Assembly: GCF_019903425.1 (NCBI RefSeq)
Contig: NZ_JACHUZ010000013.1
Location: forward strand, 1,272,285-1,336,284
DNA length: 64,000 bases
Source of the DNA: Vreelandella halophila
Lineage (GTDB): Bacteria > Pseudomonadota > Gammaproteobacteria > Pseudomonadales > Oleiphilaceae
Reading direction: 5' to 3'
Both the position numbers and the translations under genes were made by a program. The notes beneath the pieces are model-generated. The model saw only the letters and a list, made by a program, of their open reading frames with translations. It did not search any database and was not told the origin of the DNA. How positions within the stretch are numbered: position 1 is the stretch's first letter; every line of letters starts with the position of its first letter. Below are positions 7,197 through 30,096 of this stretch, one piece after another.

Positions 7197-10100
7197 GCTG
7201 TATTCTCGTTGTCGATCATGATCCCGCCTCGGTATCGGTAACCTCGGAACTGCTGCGGACGCTGGGGCACAGGGTCCATGAGGCCACGCACACGGATCAT
7301 TGCCTGGCGCTGGTGGAGCGCCATCATCCGGATCTGGTACTGATCGGTATCCGGCCGGGAGACGTGCCTGCCTCCGGTTTCATCCGCAGCCTTCGCGAGC
7401 AGCCGCAACTGCAGGGAATCTTTGTTGTCGGGATCTCATCCAGTCGGGCAGAGCCGTCAGGCGCTCTTGCCGAACCCTCCTGTGTCGATGGTTTCATTAC
7501 CCGCCCGGTCTCCGACTCGGAGTTTGTTTCCCGTGTGGAGGGCTTTCTGCAGCTGAAGGGGGCCCAGGATGCGCTGCGGCGCAGTGAGTCCCGTTTCCGG
7601 CGGGTGATTGAGCGTAATGCCGACGGCATCATCATTGTTTCCCGTGATGGCCGGGTGCGGATGTGCAATCAAGCTGCCCTGTGGCTGTTCCAGATCGGAG
7701 AGGATGCCCTGATCAGCCGGGATTTCGGCTTGCCGCTCACCACGGGCGAATGCACCGAGGTGGAGGTGCCCCACGGCGATGGTGGCTACACCGTCATGGA
7801 GATGCGGGTTGTCGATATTGAATGGGACGGCAGCACAGCATGGCTGGCATCGCTTCGGGATGTGACGGAGCGCTATGACGCGCAGAAAGCGCTTGAGGCC
7901 AGTAACCGGGCCCTGCGACTGGTCAGCGCCTGCAATGAAACAGTGCTCCACGCTGGTGAGGAACAGGAGCTTCTGGAGCAGATCTGTCGCACCGCTGTGA
8001 CCATCGGGGGTTACGATCTGGTCTGGGTGGGGCTGGCCGAGACGTCGCCCGGCCATCCCATCCAACCGGTACACTGGGCGGGCCAGGGGGCTGGGTTCAT
8101 CGGTGATGCCGAACTCAGCTGGGACACCGGCCTCAGGGCGGGGCTGGCGCCTGCTGGCGAGGCGATCCGGGAGGCCCGGCCGGTGGTCTACGAGGATACC
8201 CGGGCGGTACCCCTTGCTTCCGCCGAGGTCGAACCGGCTGTCCAGCACGGCTACGGCCGTCTGATCTATCTGCCGCTGTGCAGTGAGCGTGGTGCCTTCG
8301 GTGTCCTGGGGCTCTATGGTCGTGATTGCCAGCGCGTCACCGATGAGGAACTGAGCCTGCTCCTGCGCCTGTCCCGCAACCTGGCGTTCGGCATTGAGCA
8401 CGTACGCACCGAGAGCGAGAAGCAGCGTGTGCAGGAGACCGTGCTCAAGGTGGCCTCCGGGGTATCGGCCACCGTGGGCACGGAGTTTTTTGAACAGCTG
8501 GCACGGAACATGAACCAGGCCCTGGGCAGCGTCATCAGCATGGTGGCGCGGGTGAATATGGGAGAGGACCCAACCGCAGAGACACTGTCGGTGATTGTTC
8601 ACGATGAACTGCGGGAGAATGTCGGGTTCCGGTTGGCGGAAACGCCCTGCCTGGAGGCTTTTGATCGTGGCAGCCTGGTGCTCCATGAGCTCAGTGGCAG
8701 CGAGTTCCCGCTGAACAGCGGCGACCGGCCGGATACGAGCGCTGGCGTGATCTGGCGTCTCGACAATGCGGCGGGCCAGCCCATCGGCTTCCTCATCACC
8801 CTCTTCGCCTGGCCGCTGGAGGAAGAGGATTTCGTCTACAACACCATTCAGATCTTCGCCAGCCGCGCGGAGGCGGAAATCGAGCGCCGTAACACGGATG
8901 TGCGCATCCGCGACCAGGCCTCGCTGCTCGATAAGGCCCAGGACGCCATCATCGTTCTGGGCATGGATCAGCGTGTGCTGTTCTGGAACCAGAGCGCCGA
9001 ACGGCTGTACGGGTGGAGCGCCGAGGAGGCATTCGGACAGCCGCTGGAGACGCTGGTAGCCGACAGCCGTGACCAGTTCTCAAAAACCTTCGTCAATGTG
9101 CTCCATGACGGTGAATGGAAGGGTGAGATCGCCCAGCGCCATCGCGACGGCCACAGCCTGATCGTGGAAGGGCGCTGGACCATGGTGCGTGATGATGATG
9201 GCCGGCCACAGTCGATGCTGGTTATCAACACCGACATTACCCAGCGCAAGGAACAGGAGCGTGAGATCGAGCAACTTGCCTTCTTCGACCCACTGACACG
9301 GCTGCCCAACCGCCGCTTGCTGGTCGACCGCCTGCAGCAGGCGCTGGTGGTCAGTGGTCGTAACGGGCAGATTGGCGCGCTGCTGTTTCTGGATCTGGAC
9401 AACTTCAAGATCCTCAACGATACCCTCGGCCATGACCTGGGGGATGAACTGCTGCGCCAGGTGGCCGTGCGTCTCCAGTACGCCGTGCGCCGCAGCGATA
9501 CCGTGGCCCGGCTCGGAGGTGACGAGTTCGTGGTGATGCTGCCGGAAATGGATCCGGTCAGTTCATACGCCGCCGAGCAGGTCGCCATCGTCGGTGAAAA
9601 GATTCTGGAGGTCTTCCGTTTGCCCTTTGAGCTTTCCGGCCAGGAATTCTTCATCACCCCGAGCATTGGTATCGCGCTCTTCGGTGATCGCGCCAGCAGC
9701 GTGGACCAGCTGCTCAAGAGGGCGGATCTGGCCATGTACCAGGCCAAGGAATCCGGGCGCAATTCCATACGGTTCTTCGATGAGCACATGGAATCCGAGG
9801 TCGCGAACCGGGCGGCCCGGGAGAAGGAGCTGCGGCGCGCCATCAGGGAGCGTGAGTTCGTTCTGTTCTACCAGCCCCAGCTCGAGGTGGAGCATGGCGT
9901 CATCGGTTTTGAGGCGCTCGCCCGCTGGCAGCATCCAAAGCAGGGCATTATCGCTCCGGGGCAGTTCATTCCGCTGGCGGAGGAGACGGGGCTGATCGTG
10001 GAGCTTGGCAGGCTCGTGCTCACCCAGGCCTGTGAGCAGCTCGTCATTTGGGCACGGAGCACTGATACGGCCGATCTCAGTCTTTCGGTGAACGTCAGTG

Positions 10101-17850: not shown

Positions 17851-20190
17851 TCACTGTACCGTAACCACCTTGCTGGCGCGGCGGTAGCGGATCTTCCAGC
17901 CCTTCCAGCTGGGCAGTTCCCAGCGTTTGGGCGGCGTTTTGCGGGGGCCGTGACGGTAGTCCAGGGTGATGCGCCGGGCGGCAGGTTCATAGGTTGCATC
18001 CATGACCAGATCCCCCAGGGACAGGCGGCGGGGGTAACGCCGGTCGAAGGTCTCGCGCTCCCATTCCGGAATGCCCTCAAAGGCAAGATCCCCGGGTTCG
18101 ATCAGGCTCTCGTCCCCGGGCTCCTCCACGCCCAGTGCCTGCAGGCGCTCGCAGAGCCATTGCCTGGGGGAGTCCGGAACGTCACCTTCTCCGTGTCCCA
18201 GGGCCACGTACAGCGCCCACTGCTGGATATCCGCCTGGATGCTCTCACCGACTGGGGTCAGCAGCTGCCCCTGCAGGATCAGCTCCGCGAGGGCGCTGCG
18301 CAGGTCCGCACCGGAGGGGGTGATGTCTGCTGAACTGACGACCCGGTTGGCATAGAGGCGCTCGCGGCGGACGCGGGGTTCGCCGTCCTCGAGGCGCATC
18401 TCCCCGAAGCGCACCTCGCCCAGATCCAGCTCGTCCAGTATGGACAGTGACACCGGCGCCAGGCAGGTGGCGATGGTGATGGTCTGGCGGTGGCCGCGTT
18501 TACCCGGGGTGCTGTATTCGTCCAGCACCAGGGCGGCTTCGGCGTCCTCCGGCAGTCGGGAGGCGTCATCCGGAAGGACCTCCCGGGCATCGTTGCCCAT
18601 GGCCTGGCGGCGTTTCTCGCGCCGGACGAAGACCAGTTCCGGGGCCGCTTGCGCGATTGCCCGGCGCAGGTGAGCAGGGTCATCGAGGGGCGTCTCCGGA
18701 ATCGATGGCAGCCCCAGGGCGTCCCGGATGCGTCCGGCGAGCTGGCGGGCTTCACGCCGCGCCTGCTCGTTCACGCTGAGCGGTGCCGGCGGCCGGGTGC
18801 GCAGCATGGCCACCAGGGTGCTGGCGTCGCAGGGGGTGGGCAGCCAGTCGCCCAGGGCGCGGCGCTGGTCCTCCTTGTCCGGGAAGCGGAACAGGCGTGG
18901 GCGGGTGCTCAGTGCGGCCGTGAGATCCGCCATGGCGCCCTGGGTTTCGGCATCCGGCATGGCCGAGATCAGGTGCGCAAAGAAACTGTCGATGGGGAGC
19001 TGGAACAGGCGCTGGCCGTAGTCGGTCGCAACGCCGTCTTCATCCACGGCACCCATGCGCTGGAGCTGCTCAAGCGCCTTGCTGTGGGCTTTCTGCGGCA
19101 GTGGGTCGGGGAAGCTCAGGCTGTGAGCGGGGGCGTTGGCGCAGCCGGCGGCCAGTACCAGCTCGGTCAGCTCCTCGCGCTGGATCTCCGGTGCGGTGGT
19201 GGCCTCCAGCGGTGCGCCGCGGCCCCAGAGCCGAATCGCCGTGCCCGCTTCGGTGCGCCCGGCCCGGCCACTGCGCTGGTCTGCCGAGGCCTGGCTGATG
19301 GCGGCCAGGCTGAGCACCGTGCGGCCGTTGCGCTGGTGGGTGCGACGCTCCAGGCCGGAGTCCACCACGGCGGTTACCCCGGGAATGGTCAGGGAGGTCT
19401 CCGCCACGTTGGTCGCCAGAATGACACGCTGGCCGTCGTCCTCGGCCAGCGCCTGTCTCTGGGAGTCGGCGTCCACGGTGGCATGCAGGGTCAGTACCGG
19501 GACGCCGGGATCGCCCAGGGCCTGCTCCGTATCACGGATCTCGCCCCGGCCGGGCAGGAATGCCAGCACCGGGCCGGACGTTTCCCTCAGTGCCCGCTGG
19601 ATGGCCCGGGCCATGCGCTCCGCCAGATGGCGGCTTTCAGGCATATGGCGTTCATCCCTGGCGTCATGCTGGAGGGTTACGGGGAACCGCCGCCCCTCCG
19701 CCTCGATCAATGGCGCCTGCAGGTGGCGGGCTACGGTCTCCGCCGCGAACGTCGCCGAGGTGACAACGAGATGATGCTCGCCCCGGTGTTGGAGCAGGGC
19801 GAGCAGCAGGTCGGTGTCCCAGCGCCGTTCGTGGAATTCGTCCAGGACAACGGTCCGGAATCGCCGCAGCCCGCCTTCGCCCAGCCATCGCAGCGCCATG
19901 CCGGGGGTGGCGAAAACCAGTGGCGTGTCGCTGTTGCAGCGCACATCAAACCGGACGGCGTAGCCAATGCCCTCACCGAGGGCCGTCCCCTGTTGCCGGG
20001 CGAGGAAGCCGGCCAGTGCCGTGCAGGCCACCCGCCGGGGCTCGATCACCAGGGTGGCGCCCTGTTCGCAGGCCCAAACGGGCAGGCGGGTGGACTTGCC
20101 GGAGCCCGTGTCCGCGGTAACAACGGCGTGGCCCTGCTGCAGGGCGTCCATGAAGCGTGTACGGTGGGGATCAATGGGTAGTTGATGCAT
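17851..20190 (-). CDS. hrpB: ATP-dependent helicase HrpB
   Basis: This 779-residue DEAH/RHA helicase shows Walker A GSGKST (29-34), DEFH in VVLDEFHER (117-120), motif III SATF and motif VI QRSGRAGRTEAG. A helicase-associated region and the HrpB C-terminal domain follow. The DEFH variant and overall length are typical of HrpB; E. coli HrpB is about 800 residues. I placed the start at 20190 (MHQLPIDPHR). The frame continues upstream with codons that would overlap the divergent gene's promoter, and no start has a strong ribosome-binding site. The biological role of HrpB is not settled. Confidence 0.93.
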   Translation of the reverse strand: MHQLPIDPHRTRFMDALQQGHAVVTADTGSGKSTRLPVWACEQGATLVIEPRRVACTALAGFLARQQGTALGEGIGYAVRFDVRCNSDTPLVFATPGMALRWLGEGGLRRFRTVVLDEFHERRWDTDLLLALLQHRGEHHLVVTSATFAAETVARHLQAPLIEAEGRRFPVTLQHDARDERHMPESRHLAERMARAIQRALRETSGPVLAFLPGRGEIRDTEQALGDPGVPVLTLHATVDADSQRQALAEDDGQRVILATNVAETSLTIPGVTAVVDSGLERRTHQRNGRTVLSLAAISQASADQRSGRAGRTEAGTAIRLWGRGAPLEATTAPEIQREELTELVLAAGCANAPAHSLSFPDPLPQKAHSKALEQLQRMGAVDEDGVATDYGQRLFQLPIDSFFAHLISAMPDAETQGAMADLTAALSTRPRLFRFPDKEDQRRALGDWLPTPCDASTLVAMLRTRPPAPLSVNEQARREARQLAGRIRDALGLPSIPETPLDDPAHLRRAIAQAAPELVFVRREKRRQAMGNDAREVLPDDASRLPEDAEAALVLDEYSTPGKRGHRQTITIATCLAPVSLSILDELDLGEVRFGEMRLEDGEPRVRRERLYANRVVSSADITPSGADLRSALAELILQGQLLTPVGESIQADIQQWALYVALGHGEGDVPDSPRQWLCERLQALGVEEPGDESLIEPGDLAFEGIPEWERETFDRRYPRRLSLGDLVMDATYEPAARRITLDYRHGPRKTPPKRWELPSWKGWKIRYRRASKVVTVQ

Positions 20191-20294
20191 TCGGTTGCAG
20201 TCGAGCGCTGTTTGCAGGTTCAATGGACCAGATAGTAATGCGACTCCCATTCTAACAGTGGCTGGCCTAAATTGGCGGCAAGGGGGCGCCTGGA

Positions 20295-22283
20295 GTGCAC
20301 GGAGCTGAACATGAACCCGAAACGCGGTATGACGGCGCCCCAGAGGCGCTCGTGACAACACTCGACGCGGCCATCAGCCGCCTTGCTGAAATCAATGCCG
20401 TTGAAGGCGTCTCGCCGGTTTTCGAGGCGCTCGAGGCCGCACAGCCCCTGATGTTCAGTTCCGAAGGCCTGGATGCGCTCTACCAGCGCGTGCCCGCCAT
20501 TGAGGGGGCCGGTTTTTTTGGTGGCAGTGATTGGGACTACCCCCAGACCCTGGTGCCCTCGCTGGCCGTGCGCACGGTGCGATACGGCGAACCCACCGCA
20601 ACGCTGGTCGAAATCCTGAGCCAGATCCGCCTGCTGGCAGTGGCCAGGGGCGACTACACCCATCCCTCCATCTCGGCGGAACATGCCCATCATTTTCTCG
20701 CCCAGGTGCTGGCGATGAATCTCGATCTGGTGGTCAGCAATCTGCAGGAGAGCGACCGGCTGCGACCCAATGAGCTGGGTTACGCCGTTCAGAATCTCTA
20801 TCACTACCTGCTTCAGCACTTGGGCTATGGGAATCTTCTGGAGCACCTGGTGGCCGAGGTCTGGCGGATTCTGGCGCAGCGCCCGGTCCAGGTGGAGGGC
20901 GTCAAACAGATGGTGACGCAGATTGCCGTCTGTCTGCAGAAACCGGATGCGCTGGGCGGTGAGGTCGGCGACGACGCACTGCAACTGATCAACGCGGTGT
21001 TCAGCCCCACTGAAGCGTGCCGTGAAGATCCCGGCTTCGAGGTCTACTCGGAACGACTGGCGGACATGGACGACGCCGCCCTGCTGCAGGAGGCCATCGC
21101 CTTTGCGCAGGCCATGCACAGTACCGGTCTGGTGTCGGCCTACATGCCGGTGTTCATACGCTACCTGCGTGGTCGCTGGAATGCCCTGATCCCAACGGCG
21201 CTGGGTTTGAGTTACACCGGTGCCGACGCGTTTCACTGCTATCCGAAGTTGATCCACACCCTGATTGATGAGGCCCTGTTTCCCGAGACCAGCCAGTGCG
21301 CCTATGGCCTGGCCATGATGCTCGAGCGGGGTATTCTCTACGCGCCTCCGGTGGCACCGTCCCTGTGGCGCCAGTTACGACTGTCGCTCTGTGAAGCGGC
21401 GACCCGCAAGATTGAAGCCGTCTTTGGCAGCAGCCGTTCCCCGGAATGCTTTCTGCTCGCTGATGTACTCAACGTGCTGGGTCGGCCGCTGGGCGTGGGG
21501 CAGGGGAACTATCCGACCTGTCAGTCGACGCGCGCGCTGTCCATGTGGGCCTACAATATGCCCGCGGAACTGCTTCAGATCCTGGCCTGGGCAGCGCGTG
21601 ATGACGAGGTTGTGATGCGCTTTGAAGGCAACAGTATTTCGTCGCGGGATCTGGGCACCGGCCTGGCTGCCGAGCCCCCGGTGGATGTGGACGCCGTTTC
21701 GCTGCTGACCGTGCCCCACCTGGATCGCATCTACTTCGAAATGGGTCGACGCAGCGCCGGGCGCGGAGAGGATCCGCACAAGTGGGTCAACGCCGAATTC
21801 CATGGTGATCGTGTGGGTCACGGATTCCGTATAGCAGTGGATGTGTTCACCGGCGGCCTGAAGGACTTTGAAGGGTTTATCCGCGACTTTTACGCGTCTT
21901 ACCACCCCTTCTACAACGGCAATATTCCGGTCATCAATCCACAACCCGCCGGCATTGCGGTGACCGACAGTGCCACGCGCTTTCTCGGCTGGCACGCGAT
22001 CACCATCCAGCGGCTTGCGCTGGATACGGATCAGACCATGCGTGTCTATTTTTTCAACCCGAATAACGACAGCGGGCAGAACTGGGGCCAGGGGATCGTT
22101 ACCGCGACCCAGGGCCACGGCGAGCTCTACGGCGAAGCCTCGTTGCCGGTGGCTGAGTTCGCGTCACGACTGTATGTGTTCCACTACGATCCCCTCGAAA
22201 AGGGCGAGCCAGCCGATATTCCAACCGATGAAGTCAATCGGGCCATGCAACTGGCCCGGACGAGTTGGGCTCAAGGGCGTTAG
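20295..22283 (+). CDS. Uncharacterised protein with papain-like Cys-His-Asn pattern
   Basis: I do not recognise the family of this 662-residue protein. The first roughly 390 residues look mainly helical. The C-terminal part reads like a papain-superfamily core: Gln403 six residues before Cys409 in GQGNYPTCQSTRALSMW (papain also has Gln at minus six), His567 in GWHAITIQ, then Asn588 in VYFFNPNND with a following NWG. This suggests a cysteine peptidase or transferase acting on amide bonds. It has no signal peptide or membrane helix. An ATP-grasp gene follows after 77 bases on the same strand, so the two probably form one pathway. The start is uncertain: GTG 20295 or in-frame GTG 20352. Divergent from hrpB. 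Confidence 0.55.
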   Translation: MHGAEHEPETRYDGAPEALVTTLDAAISRLAEINAVEGVSPVFEALEAAQPLMFSSEGLDALYQRVPAIEGAGFFGGSDWDYPQTLVPSLAVRTVRYGEPTATLVEILSQIRLLAVARGDYTHPSISAEHAHHFLAQVLAMNLDLVVSNLQESDRLRPNELGYAVQNLYHYLLQHLGYGNLLEHLVAEVWRILAQRPVQVEGVKQMVTQIAVCLQKPDALGGEVGDDALQLINAVFSPTEACREDPGFEVYSERLADMDDAALLQEAIAFAQAMHSTGLVSAYMPVFIRYLRGRWNALIPTALGLSYTGADAFHCYPKLIHTLIDEALFPETSQCAYGLAMMLERGILYAPPVAPSLWRQLRLSLCEAATRKIEAVFGSSRSPECFLLADVLNVLGRPLGVGQGNYPTCQSTRALSMWAYNMPAELLQILAWAARDDEVVMRFEGNSISSRDLGTGLAAEPPVDVDAVSLLTVPHLDRIYFEMGRRSAGRGEDPHKWVNAEFHGDRVGHGFRIAVDVFTGGLKDFEGFIRDFYASYHPFYNGNIPVINPQPAGIAVTDSATRFLGWHAITIQRLALDTDQTMRVYFFNPNNDSGQNWGQGIVTATQGHGELYGEASLPVAEFASRLYVFHYDPLEKGEPADIPTDEVNRAMQLARTSWAQGR

Positions 22284-22360
22284 CAGGCCCGGAATCCCCA
22301 CAGCTGGCGTTGCCAATGCGACCGCCGGCTTTATTGCGAAACGCAAAAGGAGAACAACCA

Positions 22361-23665
22361 ATGTCGAACGAACCACAAGCTCAAAAAAAAGACGTTTCCA
22401 GCTGGACCGACCCGACGATGGACTCGGTGCGCGGAACGGAAACACCCAAGGACCCGAATAAGGGCTACATCGCGCTGCTGGGCTGGAGCGTCAATGCGAT
22501 TAAAGCGGCGCAGAAGTTTGATCGCCGCTACGTCGTGGTAGCGCCCGAGTGGGCCGCTGATTTCTGTGAAGCCAACAAGATCCCGTTCATTCCCTGGGAT
22601 TTTGAGCGCCTGAACGATCGCTCGCTGGAGATTGCCGAGCGGTTGAAAAAAGAAGGGGTTGATGCCGCCGTCCCCCTGTTTGAGGAAACCGTTGAGTGGT
22701 CGGGGGCAATCAACTCAGTGCTCATGGACAACCCTCGAATGTACGGTCAGTCCATCCTGTTCCGGGACAAGGCCCTGATGAAGCGCCGCGCCCAGTTGGG
22801 TGGTATACGCGTGGGGATCTTCGAGGAAGCCCACGAAAAGGACGACATCATCCGCTTCATGAAGCGCGTTAACCAGACGCTGCTCAAGCTTGACGGTGAC
22901 CCGGATGACCCGATTCACGTCAAGGCCTTCGACAAGGCCGGCTGCCTCGGGCACCGCATGATCCGCACGCTCGAAGAGATCGAGCACATACCGGACGAAG
23001 AGTATCCGCTGCTCATGGAAAGCCACCTGGATGGCTGGGAGTTTGCGGTCGAGGCCTGGATCCACGACGGTAAGATCCAGTTCCTGAACATCTCCGAGTA
23101 CGTGACGCTGGGCTATTCGGTCTTTGTGCCCGCGACCAAGGAGCTGGAAAGCTGGCGCAATGCGATCACCAAGCAGATCGAGAAGCTGATCAAGACCTTC
23201 GATATCCAGTTTGGCCTGATCCACCCGGAGTACTTTGTGACCGCTGATGGTGAGATGTACTTTGGCGAGATCGCCTATCGCCCACCCGGGTTCAAGGCGT
23301 TCGAACTGATTGAGCGCGCCTACGGGTTCAGCGCCTATCAGGCGTCCATGCTGGTGTTCGATCCCAAGAGCACCAAGGAAGAGGTGGCAAACTTCTTCCC
23401 GAAGGAAGTGGAGGATGCCAGGGGCTACGCCGGATGCTTTGGTGTTTACCCACGCCATCGTGTCGTCAGCAAGCTGGAAATGCCGAAAGAGACCACGGAA
23501 CACCCGTACTTCGAGTTCCACGAACTGACCGAACCCAAAGAGGAAACGGTGCCGGACCGATCAGCGTTTGGCACACACTGGGGTCTGGTCTTCTTCTTTG
23601 GGGATGACCCCATCAAGATGCGGGATCTGCTCAAGGCGCAGGAAGACCTGCACTTCTACGTCTAG
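22361..23665 (+). CDS. ATP-grasp family ligase
   Basis: This 434-residue soluble protein has an ATP-grasp architecture. An N-terminal Rossmann-like part (YIALLGWSVNAIKAA) precedes a core with acidic metal/ATP ligands in LMESHLDGWEFAVEAW and HPEYFVTADGEMYFGEIAYR. ATP-grasp enzymes join a carboxylate to an amine or thiol through an acyl phosphate. The substrate is unknown; it does not look like biotin carboxylase, PurK or RimK in length and motifs. ATG 22361 has an excellent site (AGGAGA about eight bases upstream). It follows the papain-like protein gene. The stop overlaps the convergent radical SAM gene by four bases. Confidence 0.8.
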   Translation: MSNEPQAQKKDVSSWTDPTMDSVRGTETPKDPNKGYIALLGWSVNAIKAAQKFDRRYVVVAPEWAADFCEANKIPFIPWDFERLNDRSLEIAERLKKEGVDAAVPLFEETVEWSGAINSVLMDNPRMYGQSILFRDKALMKRRAQLGGIRVGIFEEAHEKDDIIRFMKRVNQTLLKLDGDPDDPIHVKAFDKAGCLGHRMIRTLEEIEHIPDEEYPLLMESHLDGWEFAVEAWIHDGKIQFLNISEYVTLGYSVFVPATKELESWRNAITKQIEKLIKTFDIQFGLIHPEYFVTADGEMYFGEIAYRPPGFKAFELIERAYGFSAYQASMLVFDPKSTKEEVANFFPKEVEDARGYAGCFGVYPRHRVVSKLEMPKETTEHPYFEFHELTEPKEETVPDRSAFGTHWGLVFFFGDDPIKMRDLLKAQEDLHFYV

Positions 23666-24917: not shown

Positions 24918-25544
24918 ATGACACTTCAACTTGGCGATACAGCGCCGGATTTCACAGCGGAAAGCACCAAGGGAACCATCCACTTCCATGACTGGATTGG
25001 GGACTCCTGGGCTTTTTTCTTCAGCCACCCTGCGGATTTCACGCCGGTATGCACCACTGAAATGGGGCGGACCGCGCAGCTGGCCGATCAGTTCGAGCGC
25101 CGGTGCGTGAAACCCATCGGGCTTTCCACCGAGACCGCCGAGGAACACCTGAAGTGGATCGAGGACGTTAACGACACACAGAACTGCGCCCTCGACTTTC
25201 CGATCCTGGCGGATGCGGATTTCAACATCGCCCGCCTCTACGACATGATCCATCCGGGCGAGAGCGAGACGGCCGCGGTGCGCAGCGTATTCATAATCGA
25301 TCCGGAAAAACGCATCCGTCTGACCATGACCTACCCGATGACCGTGGGTCGCAACTTCGATGAGATTCTGCGTGCCATCGACGCGCTGCAGACCAGCGAC
25401 AACCGCACCTGCGCGCTTCCCGCTGACTGGAATCAGGGCGATGAAGTCATCATCCCGCCGTCGATTCCAAACGAGCGCGCGAGTGAACTCTTCCCGAACG
25501 GGTGGGAGGAGCTGCGGCCCTATCTGCGTATGGCGAAACTCTGA
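24918..25544 (+). CDS. 1-Cys peroxiredoxin (Prx6/AhpC-TSA family)
   Basis: This 208-residue cytoplasmic peroxiredoxin has peroxidatic Cys45 in HPADFTPVCTTE, the Prx6 signature, and a long C-terminal region (GDEVIIPPS) typical of 1-Cys Prx6 proteins. It would reduce peroxides using thiols. Its position at the head of the persulfide/sulfide genes and its shared promoter motif suggest a role in the oxidative side of sulfide metabolism; that is inference. A hairpin after the stop probably terminates it before the dioxygenase gene. Confidence 0.92.
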   Translation: MTLQLGDTAPDFTAESTKGTIHFHDWIGDSWAFFFSHPADFTPVCTTEMGRTAQLADQFERRCVKPIGLSTETAEEHLKWIEDVNDTQNCALDFPILADADFNIARLYDMIHPGESETAAVRSVFIIDPEKRIRLTMTYPMTVGRNFDEILRAIDALQTSDNRTCALPADWNQGDEVIIPPSIPNERASELFPNGWEELRPYLRMAKL

Positions 25545-25580
25545 GGGCGGTAGGCCATCCCTGGTGCTGCGATAGCGGCC

Positions 25581-25605
25581 GGGGGTGGTCCTGCTACCAC
25601 GCCCC
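25581..25605 (+). terminator. Probable terminator after the peroxiredoxin gene
   Basis: GGGGGTGGT and ACCACGCCCC can pair with one bulged base around a six-base loop. The following sequence ATTGCTTTAT is only moderately T-rich, so termination strength is uncertain. Confidence 0.4.
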
Positions 25606-25620
25606 ATTGCTTTATATGTC

Positions 25621-25646
25621 ATTTGGTATTAACGTTATAACCAAAT
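25621..25646 (+). promoter_or_regulatory. Inverted-repeat operator upstream of the first persulfide dioxygenase
   Basis: The two 13-base arms (ATTTGGTATTAAC and GTTATAACCAAAT) are complementary at 11 of 13 positions around a central AC/GT. The element ends 42 bases before the start codon and shares CGTTATA with the elements at 24794 and 36903. Its symmetry suggests a dimeric regulator. Confidence 0.5.
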
Positions 25647-25688
25647 AGGCAATCATTCATTAAGCTCACGATTCCTTTGGAGGCCGAC

Positions 25689-26600
25689 ATGAAAACGTTC
25701 GAGCGTTCCAGCAGCACAGGCGCTGGCAAGCCGGATGTGGCCGGGTTCTACGACACGCGGACTTTCAGCATTCAGTACGTGGTTTCCGATCCCGCAACCA
25801 GCCAGTGCGCCATCATTGATCCGGTGCTCGATTACGACGAGAAATCGGGCGCGACGGGGACCCATCACGCGGATGAAATCCTGGAATACGTGGCACGCCA
25901 GGGTCTGACGGTTGAGTGGATCCTGGATACCCACCCCCACGCCGACCACTTCTCGGCCGCCCAGTACCTTAAGGGCAAAACCGGCGCACCCACCGCGATC
26001 GGAAGTGAAGTGACCGCGGTCCAGGCACTGTGGAAAGACATCTACAACTTCCCGGACCTGGCAACTGATGGCAGTCAGTGGGACCGCCTGTTCAGTGACG
26101 GTGATCAATTCACCGTGGGTGAAATGGAAGCGAAAGTGATGTTCTCGCCAGGCCATACACTGGCCTCCATCACCTATGTGATCGGCGATGCGGCCTTTGT
26201 TCACGACACCCTGTTCCAGCCTGATTTCGGCACAGCGCGGGCGGATTTCCCCGGTGGCAGCGCCGAACAGCTCTGGGAATCCATCCAGGCCATTCTGGAA
26301 CTGCCGGCAGAGACCAGGGTCTTCACTGGCCACGACTACATGCCCGACGGACGCGAGCCGCAGTGGGAAAGCACTGTTGGCGAGCAGCGCCGCACCAACA
26401 AGCACCTGGTGGACCAGAACCGGGAGGCCTATGTGGCCATGCGCAACGAGCGTGACAGCCAGCTGCCGATGCCGAAGCTGATCCTGCACGCGCTGCAGGT
26501 GAATACCCGTGGTGGTCGTCTCCCGGAGCCGGAAGACAATGGTCGGCGCTACATCAAGATTCCCCTGGACACCCTCTCTGGCGCGGCCTGGGGTGATTGA
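25689..26600 (+). CDS. ETHE1-like persulfide dioxygenase (MBL fold), copy 1
   Basis: This 303-residue metallo-beta-lactamase fold protein has HxHxDH as H82-P-H84-A-D86-H87 in DTHPHADH. Further ligands are visible in SPGHT, DTLF and TGHDY. It belongs to the ETHE1/BLH persulfide dioxygenase group, which oxidises glutathione persulfide to sulfite and GSH with a mononuclear iron. ATG 25689 is set by GGAGG at 25679-25683. DUF442 and SQR genes follow in the same direction with short gaps, matching a sulfide-oxidation operon. A second copy lies at 35978-36844. Confidence 0.9.
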   Translation: MKTFERSSSTGAGKPDVAGFYDTRTFSIQYVVSDPATSQCAIIDPVLDYDEKSGATGTHHADEILEYVARQGLTVEWILDTHPHADHFSAAQYLKGKTGAPTAIGSEVTAVQALWKDIYNFPDLATDGSQWDRLFSDGDQFTVGEMEAKVMFSPGHTLASITYVIGDAAFVHDTLFQPDFGTARADFPGGSAEQLWESIQAILELPAETRVFTGHDYMPDGREPQWESTVGEQRRTNKHLVDQNREAYVAMRNERDSQLPMPKLILHALQVNTRGGRLPEPEDNGRRYIKIPLDTLSGAAWGD

Positions 26601-26615
26601 ACGGAGGTTGCAGCA

Positions 26616-27056
26616 ATGACAATCCAACAGGTTGAGGATGGCGTCGGACTTTCCGGCGCCATGACTGCAGAAGACCTGGAGAATGCGCAACAGCAGGGAT
26701 TTCAGGCGTTGATCTGCAACCGGCGGCCTTCTGAGTCGCCGGAGCATGATGAACAGGCGCTTGCCCGGAAAGCGCAGAGTCTGGGGCTTTCGTGGACCTG
26801 CATTCCAGTGGCGACCGGCGAGTACTCGGATGCCGATGTGGCCGCCTTTCACGAGGCACTTGAAACCCTGCCGCGCCCGCTTCTCATCTTCTGTCGCAGT
26901 GGGCGGCGTTCCATCCATCTCTGGGCACTGGCCCGAATCCGCCATGACGTCGAGCCGCCGGAGACCGTACTGGAGCGCATGCGGGCTCTGGGCCATGACC
27001 CCGAGACCCTGCGTCCACTGCTGGAGCCGGCTGGGGGCAGTCCCGAGCCGGAATGA
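26616..27056 (+). CDS. DUF442/TIGR01244 sulfurtransferase-phosphatase-like protein
   Basis: This 146-residue protein of the beta-lactamase-hydrolase-associated DUF442 family has its active-site loop at Cys93 as C-R-S-G-R-R. The C-x4-R loop is the rhodanese size, one residue shorter than the C-x5-R loop of protein tyrosine phosphatases, so sulfane sulfur transfer is the likelier chemistry. GGAGG at 26603-26607 fixes the start. It sits between the persulfide dioxygenase and SQR genes, where a protein moving sulfane sulfur between them would be expected. Confidence 0.85.
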   Translation: MTIQQVEDGVGLSGAMTAEDLENAQQQGFQALICNRRPSESPEHDEQALARKAQSLGLSWTCIPVATGEYSDADVAAFHEALETLPRPLLIFCRSGRRSIHLWALARIRHDVEPPETVLERMRALGHDPETLRPLLEPAGGSPEPE

Positions 27057-27079
27057 CGTGAACCAACTGGAGACATCCC

Positions 27080-28342
27080 ATGAGTGACCACACCGCAACG
27101 CCGGCGCCTACAACGACCCACCAGATCGTGATCATCGGTGGCGGGGCAGCGGGTATCTCCGTTGCTGCCAGTCTGCTCAAGCGCCAGCGCAGTCTGGATA
27201 TCGCCATTGTTGAACCGTCGGAGGTACACAGCTACCAGCCGGGATGGACCATGGTCGGAGGCGGGGTCTTCTCTCCTGAGTCCACGCGTAGGCCCATGGC
27301 GAGTGTGATGCCGGATCGGGTGAGCTGGTATCGCACCAGTGCTCACCGTGTTGATCCGGCGAACCGCCAGGTCGCTCTGGGTGATGGCCGGATCCTGGGC
27401 TGGCGGCGGCTCATTGTTGCGCCGGGGCTGGATCTGGACTGGGATGCGATCGAGGGGCTCAGTGGCACGCTTGGCTGCAACGGCGTCACCTCCAACTACC
27501 GCTATGACCTGGCGCCCTACACCTGGTCACTGGTGCAGTCGCTGAAAAAGGGGACGGCCCTGTTCTCACAGCCGCCGATGCCGATCAAGTGCGCCGGTGC
27601 GCCGCAGAAGGCCATGTATCTGTCCTGCCACTACTGGCAGCGCCAGGGGCGGCTCAGCGATATTGATGTGCATTTCTGCAACGCAGGGGGTGTGCTTTTC
27701 GGGGTGAAGGATTATGTCCCAGCCCTGGAGCGCTATGTCGATCAGTATGGGATCCATACCCAGTTCCAGAATCGCCTGGTGGCCGTTGATGGCCCCTCAC
27801 GGACCGCGCAGTTCGCGGTGAACGGGGATGACGGTGAGCATCTGGTGGAACGGCGCTTTGATATGCTGCATGCCGTGCCGCCGCAGAAGGCGCCTGGATT
27901 CATTGCCGAGTCCGGGCTGGGTAATGACGGAGGCTGGCTGGATCTCGACCCGGAGACCCTGCAGCACCGGAGTTACCCTGCGATCTTCGGGCTGGGTGAT
28001 GCCAGTGGCACGCCCAACGCCAAAACGGCCGCGGCGGTGCGCAAACAGGCGCCGGTAGTGGCGGAGAACCTTCTGGCCACCTTCAGTGGTGACCCCATGT
28101 CGGCGGCCTATCTCGGATACGGCTCCTGTCCGCTGACCGTTGAGCGTGGGCGTATTGTGCTGGCGGAGTTCGGCTATGGTGGTGAGCTGCAGCCCACCTT
28201 CCCGAAGTGGATCAATGACGGCACCAAACCAACCCGCCTTGCCTGGTGGCTGAAGGCCGGTCAGCTGCCCTGGATCTACTGGCAGTTGTCGCTGAGAGGT
28301 CACGAGTGGCTGGCAAAGCCTGCAAGGCGCGACACGACCTGA
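27080..28342 (+). CDS. sqr: Sulfide:quinone oxidoreductase
   Basis: This 420-residue FAD flavoprotein starts with a dinucleotide-binding GGGAAGISVAASL motif. It has the SQR segment PIKCAGAPQKAMYL with a conserved cysteine and a later GLGDASGTPNAKTAAAVRKQ FAD-contact motif. The C-terminal part (about 390-410) is amphipathic, fitting a membrane-associated enzyme that reduces quinone. Type II SQR is the closest group by motif. It oxidises sulfide to a persulfide carried by a thiol, the substrate of the neighbouring dioxygenases, and feeds the quinone pool used by the bd oxidase downstream. Confidence 0.9.
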   Translation: MSDHTATPAPTTTHQIVIIGGGAAGISVAASLLKRQRSLDIAIVEPSEVHSYQPGWTMVGGGVFSPESTRRPMASVMPDRVSWYRTSAHRVDPANRQVALGDGRILGWRRLIVAPGLDLDWDAIEGLSGTLGCNGVTSNYRYDLAPYTWSLVQSLKKGTALFSQPPMPIKCAGAPQKAMYLSCHYWQRQGRLSDIDVHFCNAGGVLFGVKDYVPALERYVDQYGIHTQFQNRLVAVDGPSRTAQFAVNGDDGEHLVERRFDMLHAVPPQKAPGFIAESGLGNDGGWLDLDPETLQHRSYPAIFGLGDASGTPNAKTAAAVRKQAPVVAENLLATFSGDPMSAAYLGYGSCPLTVERGRIVLAEFGYGGELQPTFPKWINDGTKPTRLAWWLKAGQLPWIYWQLSLRGHEWLAKPARRDTT

Positions 28343-28365
28343 ACCGTACTGGGAGCTGAACAGGC

Positions 28366-30096
28366 ATGAATCTGGAAAGATGGCTGCCACTGGCCAGCTG
28401 GCTGCGAGGGTACACGCAGGATACCTTCCTGCGTGATGCCATAGCGGCTGTGATCGTAACCCTCATGCTGGTGCCCCAGGCGCTCGCCTATGCGATGCTG
28501 GCGGGGCTGCCGCCAGAGGTGGGCCTGTACGCCAGTATGCTGCCGTTGGTGCTTTACGCGCTTCTGGGCACCTCGGCGACCCTGGCGGTCGGGCCAGTGG
28601 CTGTTGCCTCGCTGATGACCGCTGCTGCGCTTGGCAGCATCGCGGAGGCGGGCACGCCGGAGTATGTTGCCGGCGCCCTGGTATTGGCGGCTCTATCCGG
28701 TCTGATTCTGGTCGGTATGGGGCTTCTGCGGCTGGGGTTTCTTGCCAATTTCCTCAGTCATCCTGTCATCTCCGGGTTCGTGACCGCCTCCGGTATCCTG
28801 ATCGCAGCCAGCCAGCTGCGCCATATCCTTGGCGTCGAGGCCTCTGGCCATAACCTGCTTCAGCTGGTCCCCGCACTGTGGCAGGGACTGGACAATGTCA
28901 GTGCTCTGACGCTTCTTATTGGAGGCGGTGCCTGGCTCTATCTGGTGCTGTGCCGGCGTCATCTTTGCCGTGGTCTGGAGCGTTTGGGGCTGCCGGGGCA
29001 GGCCCCGGAGCTGATGGCCAAGGCTGCCCCGGTTTCCGCTGTGATCGTGACGACGCTGTTGGCCTGGGGGTTCAATCTCAAGGCCGAGGGTGTGGAACTG
29101 GTGGGTAAAGTTCCCAGTGGTTTGCCGTCACTGGCGATGCCCAGTATGGATGGCGAGCTCTGGTCCACACTGCTGCCTGCCGCCGTTCTGATCAGCCTGG
29201 TCGGATTCGTGGAGTCGGTGTCAGTGGCCCAGACGCTGGCAGCCAAACGGCGCCAGCGGATCGATCCGAACAAGGAGTTGATTGCTCTGGGGGCTGCCAA
29301 TCTTGGCGCTGGGGTCAGCGGTGGGTCACCTGTCTCCGGAGGCTTCTCGCGCTCGGTAGTGAACTTTGACGCCGGGGCCGTCACACCTGTGGCCGGTGCG
29401 CTGACAGCGGTGGGTATTGCGCTCTCCACGCTGATGCTGACCACCCCATTGGCCTTTCTGCCCAAGGCGACGCTTGCTGCCACAATTATTGTGGCTGTGG
29501 GAACTCTTATTGACATTTCCGCTATTCGTCGCACCTGGGCTTACTCTAGGGTGGACGGTGTGGCGATGGTGGCGACGCTGGCACTGACGCTTTTCCACGG
29601 TGTCGAGAGCGGCATCCTGACCGGTGTGGCGCTGTCGCTGGGGTTGCATCTTTATCGCACAAGCCAGCCCCACAGTGCCGTGGTGGGACGTGTTCCCGGA
29701 ACTGAGCATTTCCGTAACGTTGAGCGCCACAATGTGGAAACGGAACGCCATCTGGCACTGCTGCGGGTTGATGAGAGCCTGTATTTCGCCAATGCGCGCT
29801 ACCTGGAGGATACGGTTCTGGAACTGGTTTCCCGGCGGCCTGAGCTGCGCGACCTGGTGCTGACCTGTCAGGCGGTCAACATCATTGACGCCTCGGCGCT
29901 GGAGAGTCTTGAGGCGATCAACAGCCGCCTTCGTGATGCGGGGGTTCGCCTGCACCTGGCTGAGGTGAAGGGGCCGGTGATGGACCAGCTCCAGAACTCC
30001 GCATTCCCTCATGAGCTCAGCGGACGCATCTTCCTGAGTACCTATGAGGCCTGGCAGGCACTGGGGGGTGATGGCGGATCTGAAACGTCTGGTTGA
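28366..30096 (+). CDS. SulP family anion transporter with STAS domain
   Basis: This 576-residue protein has about 11-12 helices in its first 410 residues. The SulP signature is visible (MLVPQALAYAMLAGLPPEVGLYASM), with a cytoplasmic STAS domain at about 440-560 (LTCQAVNIIDASALESLEAI). SulP proteins carry sulfate, bicarbonate or other anions. The sulfur gene context makes sulfate or another oxidised sulfur product plausible, but the sequence does not settle this. It follows SQR by 23 bases, so it probably belongs to the same operon. Confidence 0.88.
   Translation: MNLERWLPLASWLRGYTQDTFLRDAIAAVIVTLMLVPQALAYAMLAGLPPEVGLYASMLPLVLYALLGTSATLAVGPVAVASLMTAAALGSIAEAGTPEYVAGALVLAALSGLILVGMGLLRLGFLANFLSHPVISGFVTASGILIAASQLRHILGVEASGHNLLQLVPALWQGLDNVSALTLLIGGGAWLYLVLCRRHLCRGLERLGLPGQAPELMAKAAPVSAVIVTTLLAWGFNLKAEGVELVGKVPSGLPSLAMPSMDGELWSTLLPAAVLISLVGFVESVSVAQTLAAKRRQRIDPNKELIALGAANLGAGVSGGSPVSGGFSRSVVNFDAGAVTPVAGALTAVGIALSTLMLTTPLAFLPKATLAATIIVAVGTLIDISAIRRTWAYSRVDGVAMVATLALTLFHGVESGILTGVALSLGLHLYRTSQPHSAVVGRVPGTEHFRNVERHNVETERHLALLRVDESLYFANARYLEDTVLELVSRRPELRDLVLTCQAVNIIDASALESLEAINSRLRDAGVRLHLAEVKGPVMDQLQNSAFPHELSGRIFLSTYEAWQALGGDGGSETSG

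Follow-up and report, generated by a model that had tools for sequence, protein, structure and literature searches.

A recurrent pair of an ATP-grasp ligase and a candidate cysteine protein in halophilic and marine Gammaproteobacteria, and its genomic link to ectoine synthase genes

Introduction

What do an ATP-grasp ligase and a conserved protein that matches no named family do together in halophilic bacteria? The question is raised by two adjacent genes, here called A and B, in a 64,000-nucleotide stretch of Vreelandella halophila DNA (contig NZ_JACHUZ010000013.1 of assembly GCF_019903425.1, positions 1,272,285 to 1,336,284), which we refer to as the window. The survey described here shows that A and B belong together and are functionally coupled. 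It also revealed a genomic link between the pair and ectC, the gene for ectoine synthase, which is new relative to an earlier annotation made from the letters of the window alone (the sequence-only reading) and missed there. The cassette is likely to be tied to ectoine or to other compatible solutes.

Results

A and B form a recurrent gene pair

The sequence-only reading had placed two open reading frames (ORFs) side by side with 77 bp between them, and both were found at those coordinates with that gap:

20295 to 22283, plus strand: gene A, GTG start, 662 amino acids (ORF listing, model and alignment)
22361 to 23665, plus strand: gene B, ATG start, 434 amino acids, ATP-grasp_4-like, nearest solved relatives L-amino acid ligases

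A longer ORF of 466 amino acids, beginning at a TTG codon, is also listed for B; the ATG start was taken because the aligned relatives begin there.

Among 244 genomes of the order, A is present in 35 and a strong match to B (E <1e-200) in exactly the same 35, with four further genomes having weak cross-matches to B only. A sample of 398 genomes of the phylum gave the same picture: 11 carry A, the same 11 carry a strong B, and one more has a weak match to B. The hypergeometric P values are 4e-43 for the 244 genomes and 1e-21 for the 398, both uncorrected for kinship, and the two samples are not independent, ten of the 11 A-positive genomes of the larger one being also in the smaller. To score gene order, A genes were collected from three sources, namely the window, 40 hand-picked stretches and the best 80 of 517 database matches, and the 116 genes obtained were reduced at 95% identity to 106 non-redundant ones; their proportions therefore do not represent a random sample. 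B lies within 3 kb of A as A then B in 26 of the 106, as B then A in another 26 and divergently in 12, while 38 A genes stand alone and 4 are cut off by a contig end. A second A gene lies between the partners in 3 of the 64 pairs (gaps of 2.4-2.7 kb), and the remaining gaps are at most 1.1 kb. Where B precedes A the gaps run from about -47 to 140 bp (start positions as aligned), a spacing that would be expected in an operon.

The persistence of the pair through three arrangements is our reason for regarding A and B as functionally coupled. The sequence-only reading had proposed such a recurrent pair, and a genome survey was set beforehand as the test on which the proposal could fail; the survey found the two genes adjacent elsewhere. 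The pairing has its variations. In several Marinobacter species B adjoins an A paralog of about 56% identity and the closest A ortholog stands alone. A remnant of A adjoins an intact B in genome G603 (contig C16, about 40626), and a remnant of B lies just before an intact A in G567 (contig C1, about 501730). Copies of A outnumber those of B by five to two in G074 and by four to two in G178. Clustering of the neighbours gave no third obligatory partner, B being the only family regularly beside A.

A virus or plasmid origin of the pair was considered and rejected, with no viral contig found (close relatives only) and no phage. One 1.8-Mb Halomonas replicon carries B and then A. Neither protein matched a defence protein in PADLOC, and the best PHROGs match, of B only, had an E value of 0.31.

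B is an ATP-grasp protein of the amino-acid-ligase type

By its sequence B is an ATP-grasp ligase. The Pfam search matched it to PF13535 with an E value of 4.2e-6 and 26.9 bits, just below the cut-off of 27, and in the PDB it comes closest to two L-amino acid ligases, 4wd3 and 3vot, in both single-sequence and profile searches (weak, E about 6e-4). The earlier assignment of B to ATP-grasp enzymes thus stands, and these matches make it of the amino-acid-ligase type. Glu290 and Glu303 are invariant in all 13 aligned sequences, and Glu303 falls inside the segment aligned with 4wd3; by analogy the two would be the acidic metal ligands near the end of the ATP-grasp core. A structural model of B had a mean predicted local distance difference test score (pLDDT) of 45.2, too poor for a fold search. 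Both A and B appeared by eye to lack a signal sequence and were for that reason taken as cytosolic.

A is predicted to be largely helical and has a candidate cysteine site

The sequence-only reading had described A as a 662-residue protein of no recognised family, which was borne out by Pfam and NCBIfam. PADLOC and PHROGs likewise gave no convincing family, nor did PDB sequences searched with a single sequence and with a profile. A match to PriC (E 0.47; found for 5 of 28 members, best 0.035) was taken as helical noise. Within the genome collection A has its closest relatives, both at 94%, in Halovibrio salipaludis and in a strain filed as Vreelandella utahensis. The residues named earlier as a possible active site (Q403, C409, H567 and N588, with NWG at 596-598) are correctly numbered and lie as follows:

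21501 to 21521, plus strand: Gln403 to Cys409 (QGNYPTC), candidate active site, Cys409 being the first residue of a predicted helix
21993 to 21995, plus strand: His567, second residue of predicted strand 566-576
22056 to 22088, plus strand: Asn588 to Gly598 (NPNNDSGQNWG), directly after predicted strand 582-587

All four residues are invariant, both in the 28 rows of the smaller alignment and in the 129 non-identical rows of the larger one, some rows of which are one gene from two sources. A Gln six residues before the Cys, followed by His and Asn, is the order of the papain superfamily (clan CA), and this order is present in A. The AlphaFold2 model, built from 28 sequences, has a mean pLDDT of 79.6 and a predicted template modelling score (pTM) of 0.74. 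In it residues 16 to about 396 are repeat-like helices, and the C-terminal part of about 270 residues is mixed alpha/beta and holds the candidate site: Cys409 opens a helix (409-421), His567 stands at the start of its strand and Asn588 follows its own. The order of these elements fits a papain-type core, in a model whose active-site loops (399-409 and 557-566) have pLDDT values below 50. Residues and predicted topology together are consistent with a papain-like protein, and we do not file A as a member of the papain superfamily. When the C-terminal part was compared by hhalign with two sets, 28 Peptidase_C39_2 sequences and 3 of the phytochelatin family, the values were 0.1 and 0.3%. This gives no evidence either way, because the positive control, the first set against the second, reached only 6.2% and so failed too.

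ectC accompanies the pair

Matches to ectC (PF06339) occur in 125 of the 244 genomes, 123 of them above the cut-off. Every one of the 35 A-positive genomes has ectC, as against 90 of the 209 without A (Fisher 5e-12). By genus, ectC is in all 20 A-positive genera versus 68 of 113 overall (P 1e-5), and within the 11 families that hold A the counts are 35 of 35 versus 40 of 55 (family-stratified exact P 0.0009). EctB (TIGR02407) is above its cut-off in 123 of 239 genomes, namely in 33 of the 34 A-positive genomes drawn and 90 of the other 205.

At seven loci ectC lies within 2 kb of A, of B or of a remnant of B. The order is ectC, B, A at locus L181 and B, A, ectC at L190; at L195 ectC precedes B, which is followed by a GNAT gene and a histone-deacetylase-family gene, and at L212 ectC, a GNAT gene and a deacetylase-family gene are followed by B on the opposite strand 1.8 kb away. 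At L019 ectC is divergent from A and B in that order, at L050 it comes after A and is cut by the contig end, and at L213 it is tail to tail with a decayed B. By NCBIfam the ectC products of L181, L190 and L195 are ectoine synthases. Chance would give about 0.15 such neighbourhoods within 3 kb in the sample of 244 genomes, where 5 were observed.

Six of the seven adjacent ectC genes were long enough for an ectC tree, which has few columns. They need 6 label changes, gains or losses, at least 4 of them forced by well-supported branches, and they fall in at least three ectC lineages: that of L181 is among canonical genes, that of L190 stands apart, and the remaining ones sit in a clade of ectC genes that have no ectB beside them. 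No ectB was found within 3.5 kb of the six scored ectC genes beside A or B, the stretches of L190 and L213 being cut near ectC by a contig end. An ect operon, with ectA, ectB and ectC together, was accordingly not seen at these six genes. A and B are not Ect enzymes themselves. In genomes G455 and G549 the ectC neighbour is a second copy besides a canonical cluster. For G464 and G561 no further ectC was found and ectB lies elsewhere, so that the neighbour may be the ordinary synthase; G403 shows the same pattern in an assembly that is 75% complete.

The host's own genome has, at positions 8242-9909 of locus L214 (contig C13, about 2280242), a gene for a 556-residue fusion of an ectoine-synthase domain and an ATP-grasp_4 domain, with two CocE/NonD-type hydrolases, an M20 peptidase and an ATP-grasp protein resembling D-Ala-D-Ala ligase as neighbours. 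A related ATP-grasp_4 gene and a CocE/NonD-type hydrolase gene lie at most 6 kb from the A-B pair in nine Halomonas loci and from a lone A in Marinobacter changyiensis (L020, L021, L024-L027, L029, L030, L041 and L081). These genes indicate that ectC-type cyclases and ATP-grasp ligases are joined somewhere, which is no proof that A or B uses such a cyclase.

The intervals around A

Two intervals had been singled out earlier as places for a short precursor ORF:

20191 to 20294, no strand: 104 bp from the probable start of hrpB (minus strand) to A, with a 37-codon TTG ORF inside
22284 to 22360, plus strand: the 77 bp separating A from B; an AAGGAG-type ribosome-binding sequence is visible by eye, and there is no conserved short ORF

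The expectation was not borne out, ORFs in these intervals being common at most to the closest relatives. Eight A-B gaps, that of the window included, have no ORF in common: L003 and L043 share one of 20 codons, which is absent from the window and five other gaps. Among eight stretches upstream of A, again including the window's, there is no widely conserved ORF, more distant precursors lying outside this search; the 37-codon ORF recurs in L003 and, longer, in L043, and is absent from five other relatives. Other relatives have B before A with little or no gap, which argues against a precursor between the genes. The start of hrpB, a gene named by eye, is probably near 20190, some 104 bp upstream of A, and the pair is flanked by this gene and by a radical SAM-type gene (also by eye), both on the minus strand.

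Discussion

A tentative role in compatible-solute metabolism

Our preferred explanation, which we hold tentatively and at somewhat less than an even chance, is that the two proteins of the pair together form a cassette for amide bonds in halophilic and marine Gammaproteobacteria. Its substrate would be a small amino acid or peptide with a connection to compatible-solute metabolism, most likely that of ectoine or diaminobutyrate. Like L-amino acid ligases, B would activate a carboxylate as an acyl phosphate and then couple it with an amino group. If the candidate site of A is real, Cys409, His567 and Asn588 might cleave an amide or transfer an acyl group through a thioester at Cys409, and the helical N-terminal part could hold a partner or the substrate. 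Amino acids or amines from the ectoine pathway would be the likeliest substrates, or else a peptide solute of small size. A more specific form of this proposal, which we consider rather unlikely, is that A, B and ectoine synthase make up an undescribed branch of the ectoine pathway, in which B would link diaminobutyrate, acetyl-diaminobutyrate or ectoine with an amino acid, A would transfer or release the acyl group, and an EctC-type cyclase would close the ring to give an ectoine-containing or ectoine-like peptide solute. The fusion at L214 has such a cyclase and such a ligase in one chain.

Several results weigh against the compatible-solute proposal. Of the 106 A loci only 4 have ectC nearby, as do 2 of the 8 loci with a lone B and one remnant of B. 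Once about 4000 gene families are allowed for, the P value of the adjacency is about 0.002, and about 0.07 if the decayed B of G561 is left out. The nine A-positive Marinobacteraceae (family f1) of the sample have their ectC at a different locus, away from A and B and with no ectB beside it. The genome of the window itself (G000) has two ectC genes and no EctB above the TIGR02407 cut-off, the sole exception among the 34 A-positive genomes drawn. The main confounder is habitat: ectC may mark only a saline lifestyle, for which the family stratification is the sole control. Matches to osmolyte transporters near A are weak, those of L056, L070 and L227 (at the last a BCCT-like protein about 4 kb from A) falling below their cut-offs and only that of L051, a betaine/proline/choline-type ABC ATPase, passing that of NCBIfam. 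As to the site in A, very many other columns are equally invariant, and for this reason the invariance of the four residues alone is weak evidence. Residue order and predicted secondary structure agree with the papain-type pattern described in the sequence-only reading. The fold search with Foldseek leaves such a fold unconfirmed without speaking against it: there was no match in the pdb set at E 0.001, the best being armadillo-repeat entries (E 0.057), and nothing significant in BFVD, where one papain-family entry ranked 14th (E 1.1). The model used for both searches has a poorly predicted active site.

The absence of a significant fold match to any cysteine enzyme would suit a view of A as a helical scaffold, its conserved Cys and His being structural, with B acting alone, and the surplus of A over B copies in G074 and G178 points the same way. 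We regard this as quite improbable, given that the Q-x5-C, H, N order and the predicted topology fit a papain-type site and that the four residues are fixed in all 129 rows. The long helical part of A could bind a protein, as would be needed if B added amino acids to a protein in the manner of RimK and A removed them or processed that protein, the link with ectC then reflecting a saline lifestyle only. The RimK/RimB and Rlo operons do pair an ATP-grasp enzyme with a peptidase, passages of PMC12239564 link Rlo to osmotic tolerance, and a PF05618 gene adjoins a lone B. Such tagging and untagging of proteins is nevertheless rather unlikely: in the PDB, B matches L-amino acid ligases best, no gene for a protein substrate is regularly linked in the neighbourhoods seen, and the association with ectC persists within families.

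A solute chemically unrelated to ectoine, for instance an osmolyte that is an amide or a dipeptide, comparable to N-acetylglutaminylglutamine amide and used by the same halophiles, would also account for the spread of the pair among ectC- and EctB-positive genomes and for the ABC ATPase of L051, and ATP-grasp ligases are suited to such chemistry. It would leave unexplained why ectC genes of several lineages lie beside A or B, and no acetyltransferase or amidotransferase is regularly linked, GNAT genes being near B in two loci only; we judge it unlikely. ATP-grasp and cysteine enzymes occur together in pathways for ribosomally made peptides as well, and the 37-codon and 20-codon ORFs could be taken for precursors near the pair. 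That these ORFs are not more widely common, that pairs with B before A leave at most 140 bp, and that no transporter is regularly linked make a peptide pathway of this kind very improbable.

Relation to known systems

The A-B pair falls under the general theme of an ATP-grasp enzyme with a cysteine enzyme, and what is new is a protein family without a name and an unexpected link to ectoine. B can be aligned with the L-amino acid ligases 4wd3 and BL00235 (3vot) along part of the ATP-grasp core, a stretch that takes in the GE-[IV]-A-x-R segment with Glu303; unlike them, it is always found with A in the sampled genomes, and its similarity to them is weak. Systems of ATP-grasp amidoligases with papain-like peptidases are said to have been described by Iyer et al. 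in 2009, and their general pairing of an amide ligase with a papain-like enzyme resembles A-B. Glutathionylspermidine synthetase/amidase couples an ATP-grasp-type ligase with a papain-like amidase in one protein; neither A nor B matched a chain of that enzyme in the PDB sequence searches. A passage of PMC10318531 cites Iyer et al. 2009 for the papain-like family DUF3335 (PF11814). A matches neither this family nor any other in Pfam, and the host genome has no PF11814 protein.

The nearest functional parallels of A-B are RimK/RimB and the Rlo operon (RloA-RloB-RloC). These too have a cytosolic ATP-grasp protein encoded with a peptidase or a transglutaminase-like protein, and Rlo has an osmotic phenotype (PMC12239564). 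Their partners are retropepsin-like peptidases and an inactive membrane transglutaminase, whereas A is helical with a candidate cysteine site. Some A-B loci also resemble solitary ectC genes in holding ectC with no ectB beside it; passages of PMC5924519 and PMC6344544 call the function of solitary EctC unresolved. For the terms searched, we found no paper in the open-licence PMC literature on the A-B pair or on a link between ectC and ATP-grasp enzymes.

The pair is spread across Marinobacter, Halomonas and their relatives, although A has no name and B no assigned reaction. Some of these bacteria are used for ectoine production or oil degradation. The ectC neighbourhoods offer a handle on the role of ectC outside ect operons, and on further solutes or peptides that halophiles build from the ectoine pathway.

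Other neighbouring genes

Genes that occur near A or B at a few loci were considered as partners and set aside as too rare; these were the copper P-type ATPase (3 loci), the histone-deacetylase family, GNAT, and sugar and polyamine transporters. Homologous P-type ATPases lie near A or B in three lineages (L178, L188 and L201), including near the host's own lone A paralog, and that of L178 is of the copper type according to NCBIfam. Histone-deacetylase-family genes are near A or B at L195, L212, L174 and L223, the last three 67-79% identical to the first, and at L195 and L212 a GNAT gene accompanies them. The PF05618 gene beside a lone B, of the RimB/RloA-type family, is at positions 8344-8964 of L193 in G603. 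Betaine catabolism beside the lone B of L219, suspected by eye, is not claimed, the family search having given other flavoenzyme families. Farther along the window, at 24918-30096, genes named by eye for a peroxiredoxin, persulfide-dioxygenase-like, rhodanese-like and sulfide:quinone-reductase-like proteins and a SulP-type transporter stand in a row and are likely to be a sulfide-oxidation cluster.

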